DNA of 64,000 bases from Chloroflexota bacterium. Its GTDB lineage: Bacteria; Chloroflexota; UBA6077; JACCZL01. Within the stretch, counting starts at the first letter, position 1, and each line of letters begins with the position of its first letter. The DNA lies in contig JADZEM010000022.1 of assembly GCA_020850535.1 (NCBI GenBank), positions 1 through 64,000 on the forward strand. Direction: 5' to 3'. The notes under the pieces are model-generated. The model ran no database searches, had not been told where the DNA came from, and saw nothing but the letters and a program-made list of their open reading frames with translations. Position numbers and translations under genes: made by a program. Below are positions 3,526 to 62,762 of the stretch, one piece after another.

Positions 3526-5865
3526 ATGACGACCACCACGGCGCCGTTGCCGAAGCTCCTCGGGCAGCCCGTGCGCCGCCGCGAGGACGCCCGCCTGCTG
3601 ACCGGAACCGCCACCTACGTCGACGATCTCCAGCTGCCGGGCATGCTCTACCTGCACGTCGTCCGCAGCCCGTATGCCCACGCGCGCATCCTGTCCATCG
3701 ACCCCGCCGCAGCCCTGGCCCAGCCCGACGTGGTAGCCGTGTACACCGCTGCAGACTTCGCCGATGCCGTCAAGGCCCCGCTCCCGCTGGAGATCAGCCT
3801 CGACCCGTTCGACAACGTCCACGTCATGGAACGCGGGCCGCTCGCCACGGACCGGGCGCGCTACGTGGGCGACCCGGTCGCCATCGTGGTCGCCGGGACG
3901 CGCTACGGCGCGCGTGACGCCGCCGACCTCGTCGCCGTAGACTACGAACCGCTGCCCGTGGTGGTCGATCCCGAGCGCGCCATGGACCCCGACGCCCCCC
4001 TGTTGTACGACGCGTGGGGCACAAACGTCGGGCTGACCCAGAGCCTCGCCTGTGGGGATCCCGACGGCGCGTTCGCCGCCGCTCCCCGCGCCGTCCGTTT
4101 CCGGATCCACAACCAGCGCGTCCTGCCGGCCGCCATGGAGTGTCGAGGCTGTCTCGCAGACTGGCGCCCGGCCCGGCCCGGCGACGAGGGCGAGCTGACG
4201 ATCTGGTCATCCACCCAGATTCCGCACGGCCTGCGTACCCGCCTCGCCGTGATCCTGGACCTGCCCGAGAACAAGATCCGCGCGATTGCGCCAGAGGTCG
4301 GCGGCGGGTTCGGCAACAAGGTAGACATCGCACCCGAGGAAGTCGCGGCGTCCATCGTCGCGATGCGGCTGGGCCGGCCCGTCAAATGGTCGGAGACACG
4401 CTCCGAGAACTTCCTGGCAGCGGCGCACGCCCGCGACCAGATCGACGTTGTTGAGGCGGCCGTCGAGCCGAACGGCAAGGTGACCGCGCTCAGCGTCACC
4501 GCCATCTGCGACCTGGGCGGCTACTACCAGTACGTCAACCCGGTCATGGGCATGCTGACCGGCATGATGCTGCCCGGCACCTACGATATCCCCAACTGCC
4601 GCTACGAGCTACGCAGCGTCATGACCAACAAGACGCCCGTCGGGGCGTACCGGGGAGCCGGCCGCCCCGAAGCGACGTTCCTGCTCGAATGCCTGATGGA
4701 CCGCGTCGCCCACGAGCTGGGGCTGGACCCGGCCGAGGTCCGGCGCGTCAACTTCGTCCCGAAGGATCGCTTCCCCCACAAGACGCCGTTTGGCGCGGAC
4801 TACGACTCCGGCGATTATGAGCTGGCGTTGAACGCGGCGCTCGACGCCGCCGGCTACGCCAGGCTTCGGGAGGAGCAGGCGCAGGCCCGCGCCGGGGGCC
4901 GGCTGGTCGGGATCGGGCTGGCGGCCTACGTCGAGGTCTGTGGCCCCGGTCCCTGGGAGAGCGCCACCGCCCGCGTCGAGCCGACCGGGACCGTCACGAT
5001 CTACACCGGCCTCTCGCCGCACGGGCAGGGCACCGCCACGTCGCTGGCGCAGATCGTCGGCGACACGCTCGGCGTGCCCATCGACCGGATCGTGGTCGAG
5101 CACGGCGACACGGCGAAGACCGCCACCGGCGTCGGCACGTTCGGCAGCCGTGGCGCGGCGGTCGGCGGCGGCGCGATGGCGATCACGGCCGGCCACCTCC
5201 GCGAGAAGGTGCTGAGGATCGCCGCCCACCTGCTGGAGGCGTCGGCCGAGGACATCGAGCTGCAGGACGGCCTGTGGACGGTCGCCGGCACCGACCGCGC
5301 GCGCACGCTGCGGGAGATCGCCCAGGCGGCCTACGGGGGGAACGTCCCGGCCGGCGACGAGCCGGGCCTGGAGTCCACCCGCTTCTTCAAGCCGACCGGC
5401 TCGGTCTACCCGTTCGGCGTCCACATCGCCGTGGTCGAGATCGACCGTGAGACGGGCCGGGTGGACTGGCAGCGCTTCCTGGCCGTGGACGACGTCGGCA
5501 ACGTCATCAACCCGCTGCTGCTCGACGGCCAGCGCCACGGTGGCATCGTGCAGGGGTACGGGCAGGCGTTCTGCGAGCGCGTCGCCTACGACGATGAGGG
5601 GCAACTGATCACCGGCACGATGGGCGACTACGCCATGCCCACCGCCCACGGGCTGCCCCCGTTCGAACTGCACCGCACGGTGACGCTGACAGACCGCAAT
5701 CCGCTCGGCGTGAAGGGGGTCGGCGAGGCCGGCACCATCGGCTCGACGCCGACCCTCCGGAGCGCCGTGCTGGACGCGCTGCTGCCGCTGGGCATCCGGG
5801 ACTTCGACATGCCCGCAACATCGGGCCGGGTCTGGCAGGCGATCCAGGCCGCCGGGAAGAAGTAG
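3526..5865 (+). CDS. xanthine dehydrogenase/aldehyde oxidase-family Mo-binding subunit (CoxL-like)
   Basis: A 779-residue molybdopterin-cytosine-dinucleotide hydroxylase large subunit. The start at 3526 (MTTTTAPLPKLLGQPV) gives the usual N terminus, with the family signature GQPVRRREDARLLTG at the front. The hammerhead domain (about 15-130) precedes the Mo-binding domains. Residues near 372 read AYRGAGRPE, typical of aldehyde/xanthine-type enzymes, not the AYRCSFR loop of true form I CO dehydrogenase. The catalytic base is Glu734 in GVGEAGTIGS. No FAD (CoxM) or 2Fe-2S (CoxS) subunit genes adjoin it, so it either pairs with subunits encoded elsewhere or works differently. The substrate is unknown. 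Confidence 0.88.
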   Translation: MTTTTAPLPKLLGQPVRRREDARLLTGTATYVDDLQLPGMLYLHVVRSPYAHARILSIDPAAALAQPDVVAVYTAADFADAVKAPLPLEISLDPFDNVHVMERGPLATDRARYVGDPVAIVVAGTRYGARDAADLVAVDYEPLPVVVDPERAMDPDAPLLYDAWGTNVGLTQSLACGDPDGAFAAAPRAVRFRIHNQRVLPAAMECRGCLADWRPARPGDEGELTIWSSTQIPHGLRTRLAVILDLPENKIRAIAPEVGGGFGNKVDIAPEEVAASIVAMRLGRPVKWSETRSENFLAAAHARDQIDVVEAAVEPNGKVTALSVTAICDLGGYYQYVNPVMGMLTGMMLPGTYDIPNCRYELRSVMTNKTPVGAYRGAGRPEATFLLECLMDRVAHELGLDPAEVRRVNFVPKDRFPHKTPFGADYDSGDYELALNAALDAAGYARLREEQAQARAGGRLVGIGLAAYVEVCGPGPWESATARVEPTGTVTIYTGLSPHGQGTATSLAQIVGDTLGVPIDRIVVEHGDTAKTATGVGTFGSRGAAVGGGAMAITAGHLREKVLRIAAHLLEASAEDIELQDGLWTVAGTDRARTLREIAQAAYGGNVPAGDEPGLESTRFFKPTGSVYPFGVHIAVVEIDRETGRVDWQRFLAVDDVGNVINPLLLDGQRHGGIVQGYGQAFCERVAYDDEGQLITGTMGDYAMPTAHGLPPFELHRTVTLTDRNPLGVKGVGEAGTIGSTPTLRSAVLDALLPLGIRDFDMPATSGRVWQAIQAAGKK

Positions 5866-46113: not shown

Positions 46114-46226
46114 GGCCCTCACCCCCCGCCCCCCTCTCCCTGTGCGCGGGAGAGGGGGAGGAACGACAGTCTCGTGGGCCTCCCCCTCTCCCTGTGCGCG
46201 GGAGAGGGGGGCGGGGGGTGAGGGCC
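46114..46226. repeat. MITE-like palindrome of the DUF559-element family
   Basis: Perfect 27-bp terminal inverted repeats (46114-46140 and 46200-46226; GGCCCTCACCCCCCGCCCCC and on) enclose two head-to-head copies of CTCTCCCTGTGCGCGGGAGAG with a roughly 20-base spacer. The same arms flank the DUF559 gene at 62 kb, but here there is no gene inside. Confidence 0.85.
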
Positions 46227-55355: not shown

Positions 55356-55807
55356 GCTGCGAGACGCAGTGTACTGGGGCGGCTGCCGCGTTGTCAGGCC
55401 CCGCCGAATGAGGATCTGGCGGCCGGCTGCGCCTGCATCGGCGGGAAAGGCCCTCACCCCCCAGCCCAGTCGGGCCACCGGGCCGGTGCGCGGGAGAGGG
55501 GGAGGAACACCTGCAACGACACGACACGACACGACACGACACGACACGTCACGTCACGACACGTCACGGACGCAGCATGCCGCGCTCGACTCCTCATGTC
55601 ATCCTGAGCAGAGCGGGCCTGCGAGCAAAGCGAAGGATCTCACCCGCTGACGCGACAGTTGGCGCCCAGCAGGAGAGATCCTTCGCAAGCTCAGGATGAG
55701 AGTGCATCTTGCACGCAGTACATGGGGTTGCGGTACACGTCAGCCGGAACCTATCCGCCCTCAGCCTGCGTGCGGAAGCGGGGTGAGGGCCTGCCCGGCG
55801 TCGACGG
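55356..55807. other. repeat-filled intergenic region
   Basis: This 452-base gap has no supported gene. It contains a half copy of the DUF559-element repeat (about 55450-55510), a pentanucleotide microsatellite (55516-55570) and a GTCATCCTGAGC palindrome (about 55598-55712) with an 11-bp stem GCGAAGGATCT/AGATCCTTCGC. Confidence 0.7.
55516..55570. repeat. pentanucleotide microsatellite (ACGAC/ACGTC)n
   Basis: Eleven 5-bp units, the first six exact ACGAC, then ACGTC, ACGTC, ACGAC, ACGTC and a final ACGGA. It lies upstream of the GT2 gene on the minus strand. Confidence 0.95.
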
Positions 55808-61898: not shown

Positions 61899-61910
61899 TC
61901 GGCGAAATGA

Positions 61911-62052
61911 GGGAAGCCCTTACCCTCCGACCTTCCGACAACGGCCCTCACCCTCCGACCTTCCGGCAGCGGCCCTCACCCCCCGACCTTCCGACAGCGG
62001 CCCTCACCCCCCGACCCCCGGTAACGGCCCTCACCCCCCGACCTTCCGACAG
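61911..62052. repeat. left array of 27-bp repeats beside the DUF559 gene
   Basis: Five degenerate tandem units of about 27 bp, each GGCCCTCACC(C/T)(C/T)CCGACC-TTCCG-ACAGC, follow the menA stop. The sixth unit begins the left terminal inverted repeat (62053). Units CCGACCTTCCGGCAGCGG match the reverse complement of the right-hand array. Confidence 0.85.
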
Positions 62053-62646
62053 CGGCCCTCACCCCCCGACCCCCTCTCCCTGTGCGCGGGAGAGGGGGAG
62101 TTGTGGAACAACCCATTGGACACTCTGAGCGCCCCTCACAGATTGTGGGACCGAAGCGAATCACCGCATGAACGACACGGACAGGGCTGAACTGCCAGTG
62201 AGTCCGACCCGGCGAGTGTGGACGACCGGGCGGGCCAGAGAGCTACGCCGCGAAGCTACCCCGAGTGAAGCACTTCTGTGGACGCATCTGCGTGGCCGGA
62301 CGCTGGATGGCGCGCGGTTCCGACGGCAGCAGCCAATCGGCCCCTTCGTCGTTGATTTCTTCTGCGCGGAGGTGGGACTCGTCATCGAGGTCGATGGCGG
62401 TGTCCACGAACAACAGCGGGAGTACGACGAAGCTCGTCAGGCGCAGCTTGAAGGCGCCGGGTACACGGTGATGCGGATCGTTGCCACCGACGTCCTGGGT
62501 GACATTGCAGGTGTGCTTGCGCTGATCCGCGCTGAACTACAGCGTTCCAAGGCCAACGTGATGCGAGCACAACCCCAGACCCGCGACATCTGATCTGACT
62601 CCCCCTCTCCCGCGCACAGGGAGAGGGGGTTGGGGGGTGAGGGCCG
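62053..62646. mobile_element. candidate mobile element: DUF559 nuclease gene between 49-bp inverted repeats
   Basis: Left arm 62053-62101 and right arm 62598-62646 are 49-bp inverted repeats with one mismatch (48/49). Each arm itself contains the palindrome CTCTCCCTGTGCGCGGGAGAG and the outer GGCCCTCACCCCCCGACCCC. They enclose only the DUF559 gene. No target duplication is obvious. Outside lie tandem arrays in matching opposite orientations. A gene-less version of the arms is at 46114-46226. Confidence 0.6.
62168..62593 (+). CDS. DUF559 endonuclease-fold protein
   Basis: A 141-residue protein of the DUF559 family, a restriction-endonuclease/Vsr-like fold. Family pattern: RARELRREATPSEALLW, then LDGARFRRQQPIGPFVVDF and LVIEVDGGVHEQQREYDEAR. 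Candidate catalytic residues are Asp63, Glu74, Asp76 and His80. DUF559 proteins are usually single and of unknown role. Here it lies between near-perfect inverted repeats and no partner gene, so it may move or maintain that repeat. No strong ribosome site precedes the ATG. Confidence 0.88.
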   Translation: MNDTDRAELPVSPTRRVWTTGRARELRREATPSEALLWTHLRGRTLDGARFRRQQPIGPFVVDFFCAEVGLVIEVDGGVHEQQREYDEARQAQLEGAGYTVMRIVATDVLGDIAGVLALIRAELQRSKANVMRAQPQTRDI

Positions 62647-62750
62647 TTGCCGGGGGTCGGGGGGTGAGGGCCGCTGCCGGAAGGTCGGGGGTGAGGGCCG
62701 CTACCGGGGGTCCGGGGGGTGAGGGCCTTCCGGGCGTGAAGGCCGTCCCG
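62647..62750. repeat. right array of inverted 27-bp repeats beside the DUF559 gene
   Basis: Four degenerate units of GGGGGTGAGGGCCGCTGCCG with GAAGGTCGG or GGGGTCGG, the reverse complement of the units left of the gene. It ends 13 bases before the stop of the C39-type peptidase gene. Confidence 0.85.
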
Positions 62751-62762
62751 GCACCCGACGGG

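Follow-up and report, generated by a model that had tools for sequence, protein, structure and literature searches.

Why should a small nuclease-fold gene lie between two inverted copies of a hairpin repeat? We asked this of a DUF559 gene in the window (the whole 64,000-nucleotide stretch of Chloroflexota DNA analysed here), for which an earlier note, made from the sequence alone, had proposed a minimal mobile or self-maintaining element whose only protein is a DUF559 endonuclease. The question has several parts: whether the gene and its repeats are associated beyond chance, whether the arrangement recurs in other bacteria, whether sites with and without it can be found in relatives, and which enzyme might act on the repeats.

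Structure of the DUF559 locus

The features of the locus are as follows.

62168 to 62593, + strand: DUF559 gene, 141 aa, EDxHD/Vsr-type nuclease fold (Pfam PF04480, E 6.5e-34; AlphaFold2; Foldseek)
62054 to 62101, + strand: left arm, the tag GGCCCTCACCCCCC followed by the hairpin CCCTCTCCC-TGTGCGC-GGGAGAGGG, matching the right arm at 47 of 48 positions
62598 to 62648, - strand: right arm, an inverted copy of the left arm (repeat and palindrome searches)
61907 to 62053, + strand: array outside the left arm, made of degenerate units of 27-28 bp that repeat the tag (start-to-start spacing 28, 28, 28, 27)
62649 to 62727, - strand: array outside the right arm, made of tag units of 27 bp in the opposite orientation (start-to-start spacing 27, 27)

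The palindrome of the arms occupies positions 62072-62096 and recurs in inverted form at 62603-62627, and the near-identity of the extended arms includes their outer tag, GGCCCTCACCCCC; GTAG is absent from the arm. The gene therefore does lie between inverted repeats, as the earlier note had it, and the 48 of 49 matching bases given there describe the same feature as our 47 of 48. The 27-bp units that it had placed beyond the arms in opposed orientation were also recovered, as 27-28 bp units, five on the left and three on the right. The exact gapped palindrome was found four times in the window, against an expectation of 0.00 from 100 dinucleotide shuffles, and a search of Rfam returned only sub-threshold matches to a microRNA family, which we took to be chance. 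Elsewhere in the window, at 55449-55792, remnants of the tag and of a half-hairpin bound, on either side, a stretch poor in genes that contains CACGA repeats and another inverted repeat; this stretch may be a decayed copy of a DUF559 element.

The window protein exceeded the curated PF04480 cut-off by a wide margin (116.5 against 20.6 bits, residues 21-124); the related family MTES_1575 was its only other match, below cut-off, and no known transposase domain was detected. Its AlphaFold2 model (pLDDT 90) matched in Foldseek the DUF559 protein NGO0050 (3hrl) and the catalytic domain of I-Bth0305I (3r3p; TM 0.81 on the target, E 5e-4), and a profile search returned the same two structures (E 3.9e-5 for I-Bth0305I), while Vsr was matched by fold and profile with weaker scores. 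I-Bth0305I is an EDxHD homing endonuclease (PMC3943268). The residues invariant in 29 diverse DUF559 members include, in window numbering, E34, D63, E74, D76, H80 and D87, and such conservation fits an active nuclease.

Gene-free copies in the window genome

The repeat described in the earlier note is thus real and beyond chance, and it is also dispersed. The genome from whose contig 22 the window comes (a 7.65 Mb draft, 96% complete with 4.6% contamination) contains 131 palindromes of the CTCTCCC type, as compared with 3 for a backward-pattern control, and many of these form gene-free inverted pairs that resemble REPINs. Among the matches listed, paired palindromes were 50-52 or 98-100 bp apart, whereas those of the DUF559 pair are separated by 531 bp. 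Three gene-free copies (L003, L007 and L016) are identical to the left arm of the DUF559 gene at 47 of 47 positions, and one pair lies in the window itself.

46116 to 46224, no strand assigned: gene-free REPIN-like pair of the arm repeat (arm match 46 of 47; palindrome search)

This pair folds into a single long hairpin (z -12.9) and is presumed to be a non-autonomous derivative of the DUF559 element. Outer tandem tag arrays are present at gene-free copies too (L007, L014 and L016) and are therefore not special to the copy that carries the gene.

Association of DUF559 genes with hairpin arms

The earlier note had said that its proposal would fail if the repeat were not enriched near other DUF559 genes; strong enrichment was observed in two samples, in which a gene was scored as having arms when an inverted repeat scoring at least 16 lay within 250 bp on each side. 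The Chloroflexota set comprised 59 DUF559 genes, each taken with some 5 kb of sequence on either side, and the cross-phylum set comprised 80 loci from named genomes, mostly of Proteobacteria and otherwise of several other phyla; draft genomes in the samples may be mis-binned. Inverted hairpin arms flanked 66 of 79 DUF559 genes in the cross-phylum set as against 7 of 332 neighbouring ORFs (Fisher p 1e-54), where the loci were best tblastn matches, so that short standalone DUF559 genes were favoured, and the control ORFs, in both sets, were mechanical and uncurated. Among the short neighbouring ORFs of this set, arms were found at 1 of 73. The corresponding counts in Chloroflexota were 31/59 and 9/365 (p 7e-23), about half of the DUF559 genes there being armless at the threshold. 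Inspected singly, the locus of Neisseria gonorrhoeae had an inverted-repeat score of 16.0, and that of Azospirillum, with a score of 14.0, was unconvincing.

The arms in other lineages are likewise hairpins with a tag, but their sequence varies by lineage (for example, CCTTCTCCC, CTCCCCTCCCGC and CCTTCCCCC); the motif CTCTCCC-GGGAGAG put forward in the earlier note is therefore one version of a feature for which other lineages use other hairpins. The left and right arms of one locus had a median similarity of 0.73, as compared with 0.26 between loci, an excess that is partly built in by the choice of loci whose arms match. Loci with more similar arms tended to have more similar proteins (Mantel r 0.39, p 2e-4), a correlation that still contains host phylogeny. 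Chloroflexota genomes with a strong DUF559 match had a median of 24.5 palindromes, and genomes lacking such a match a median of 1 (p 4e-19; family-stratified p 4e-4), although 29 of the 160 genomes without DUF559 still had at least 10 palindromes.

Three further observations concern the copy number and arrangement of these repeats. One genome (G294) contains 813 CTCTCCC-type palindromes in 4.5 Mb, far above the rest of the sample. A locus of Mesorhizobium atlanticum (L175) has two DUF559 elements that are nearly identical and lie some 1.1 kb from each other, at 3627-3998 and 4712-5083, each with matching arms, which possibly represent a tandem duplication of the segment. On one side of the DUF559 gene of genome G098 (L108), at about 4760-4985, the entire repeat unit occurs as four 60-bp copies in tandem.

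Filled and empty sites in related genomes

The earlier note had looked to empty sites and target duplications in close relatives for signs of mobility, and the former were found at other DUF559 loci in two groups, while no clear target duplication was seen in either. In one genus (g53), the site occupied by the element in G098 corresponds to one plain REPIN in G126, with flanks that are 94% identical; the element of G126 lies elsewhere and is absent from G098 at that place, where orthology holds for the right flank only. When 360 kb of G098 was set against 400 kb of G126, no clean insertions or target duplications emerged; the two regions are heavily rearranged, and only 84 kb aligns. The loci L249-L286 of these two congeners contain a second dispersed repeat (CCCTTCCGTCCCGCCTCAAGGCGGGAAACGCAGGGGGC...) alongside the heavy rearrangement.

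The second group is the genus of Sphingopyxis sp. H053, in which the site at locus L164 is what we take, from our reading of the sequence, to be the gap that separates lpd from an E2 gene of the dihydrolipoamide type. The gap is nearly bare (GGCGTAACATGGCTGAC) in 13 genomes and filled in 21, with elements of subtype D1 in 10, D2 in 9 and D3 in 2, and one genome (G359, locus L363) that is sister to a D2 carrier (L338) has a solo hairpin without the gene. D1 proteins are 44-51% identical to those of D2 and D3, and their arms differ from D2/D3 arms; D2 and D3 proteins are 57-61% identical, and their arms are common to both. On a flank tree of 50 genomes, presence and absence require at least 16 changes, and the presence labels show much the same scatter as shuffled labels on this partly resolved tree, a scatter that fits turnover without giving its direction. 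Unrelated small ORFs, which are likewise scattered on the tree, also occupy the gap (L341, L343-L345, L353, L354 and L364-L372), so that small genes in general turn over at this site. In this genus the exact D1 hairpin is found almost nowhere but at the element's own ends; gene-less amplification is thus not universal. A repeat of 3-5 bp around the ATG could be a target duplication but is confounded by the start codon.

ycjD and box C in Escherichia coli

The DUF559 gene of E. coli is ycjD, located between sapF and fabI. Directly downstream of it stands a box C-like hairpin (CCCTCGCCCCTCTGGGGAGAGGGTTAGGGTGAGGGG), followed by degenerate relatives. No matching arm was found upstream of ycjD (best inverted-repeat score 9.5), the hairpins being on the downstream side only, and the ycjD-less strains examined have in its place an efflux operon described as eefABC; ycjD may therefore be a degenerate or domesticated case. 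A 40-nt box C-like query had a median of 15 matching places per genome, and box C has been described as a repeat family with 22-32 copies in E. coli (PMC2267715). The link between ycjD and box C is suggestive only.

A probable minimal element and the alternatives to it

We consider it probable that the DUF559 gene, together with the pair of inverted hairpin arms around it, constitutes one minimal selfish element, for which we propose the name DUF559-REP element, and that the nuclease acts on the arms. In such an element, the EDxHD/Vsr-type endonuclease would recognise the hairpin of its own arms together with the tag, whether in duplex, cruciform or single-stranded form, and would nick or cut there or close beside it, after which host repair or recombination would copy or move the arms together with the DNA between them. 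Deletion of the gene between the arms, or copying of the ends alone, could then leave solo hairpins and inverted pairs of the REP or REPIN kind, and such gene-less copies may have spread to tens or hundreds in some lineages. The minimal mobile element of the earlier note is upheld in part, namely as regards the enrichment of arms and the filled and empty sites in relatives. These observations, together with the ends common to gene-free copies, the matching of arms to protein subtype and the nuclease fold, are what the sequences show; that the nuclease cuts the hairpin and causes the movement is inferred.

The chief rival is passive movement of a cassette by recombination between repeats, in which DUF559 would be an ordinary accessory or repair (Vsr-like) gene, transferred horizontally, and the hairpins would be cassette ends that recombine without any action of the nuclease. 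The Caulobacter DUF559 protein VsrA is reported as a Vsr-like enzyme (PMC12907096), so that some DUF559 members may serve their host; the L164 site accepts unrelated small genes as well, and the solo hairpin in L363 fits recombination between arms. Neighbouring genes, short ones included, are however seldom bracketed by such arms, so that any cassette would have to be specific to DUF559, the arms track the protein subtype at the single L164 site, and the D1 hairpin is nearly absent elsewhere in that genus as a recombination partner. We regard passive movement as unlikely on balance, while giving it more weight than any other alternative. A restriction-like defence gene whose arms mark a defence hot spot would accord with a PD-(D/E)XK-type nuclease, and a search of the PADLOC defence families gave one weak match (E 0.0097) and nothing convincing. 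The window gene, though, adjoins a UbiA-family gene on one side and a C39-peptidase-like gene on the other, so that neither a methylase nor another defence gene is its neighbour; the minimal one-gene layout is repeated in many lineages; and DUF559 matches occur in few phage (2/50,697) and plasmid (42/72,556) records, all of which makes a defence role very improbable.

The remaining alternatives explain the hairpins by other means. Were these classical REPs moved by RAYT (Y1 tyrosine) transposases, with DUF559 genes trapped between them, a REPIN-like layout would be expected, as is seen, and E. coli does have a Y1_Tnp gene (one was found in our control genome). A profile search nevertheless gave no Y1_Tnp (PF01797) or RAYT match in the window genome with its 131 palindromes, nor any Y1_Tnp match in three others with 226-261 palindromes each (G009, G022 and G049), and the GTAG tag is absent, the tag here being of the CCCTCACCC type. 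A RAYT as mobiliser in the window genome was accordingly rejected, barring recent loss or an assembly gap, and we give the trapped-gene explanation very little credence. Much the same low probability attaches to the view that the hairpins serve a small gene by terminating transcription or by stabilising its mRNA: they are GC-rich and adjoin the gene ends, but they are symmetric upstream and downstream with a common tag, exceed 100 copies in the genome, are rare at neighbouring genes, and are missing along with the gene at empty sites.

Significance and relation to known systems

Extending the DUF559-REP element beyond these lineages, we suggest tentatively, and at slightly less than even confidence, that a class of hairpin-ended selfish elements without a transposase exists throughout bacteria, that short DUF559 proteins serve it as dedicated mobilising nucleases, and that many orphan palindromic repeat families, possibly including box C, are gene-less derivatives of such elements. 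For some palindromic repeat families of bacteria no mobilising enzyme is known, as has been stated explicitly for the CGTC-tagged REPs (PMC3733652), and for some such repeats the present work proposes a mover. A widespread domain of unknown function is now tied to hairpin repeats across phyla, and the titles, abstracts and passages of the open-access literature that we searched contained no link between DUF559 and palindromic repeats. Each genome would offer one testable enzyme-substrate pair, possibly including ycjD in E. coli K-12. The arrangement hints at a kind of small selfish DNA element that has so far been overlooked, and if this is true, the REP world, so far based on RAYTs, gains a nuclease-based element close to the homing endonucleases.

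Like MITEs and insertion sequences, the DUF559 element is bounded by terminal inverted repeats and exists both as a short copy carrying a gene and as copies that share its ends without the gene; it differs from them in having neither a known transposase nor a clear target duplication. The analogy in form with REP elements and RAYTs drawn in the earlier note holds. REPtrons (REPs or REPINs with their RAYT) similarly consist of short hairpins tagged on one side, occurring singly or as inverted pairs, with a small dedicated enzyme gene between inverted repeats and with dispersed gene-less copies. Their enzyme, however, is an HUH tyrosine transposase, whereas DUF559 is an EDxHD/Vsr-type nuclease, and their tag is GTAG, whereas that of the DUF559 element is CCCTCACCC-like and found in a window genome with no RAYT match. 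With the EDxHD homing endonucleases (I-Bth0305I) and Vsr, DUF559 has in common the nuclease fold, profile similarity, and filled and empty sites. Unlike the I-Bth0305I type, the DUF559 protein (141 aa) has no long DNA-binding extension, and its gene is an intergenic ORF outside any intron or intein (in the window and in the L164 genus) that is bracketed by hairpin arms and accompanied by gene-less derivatives of its repeats.
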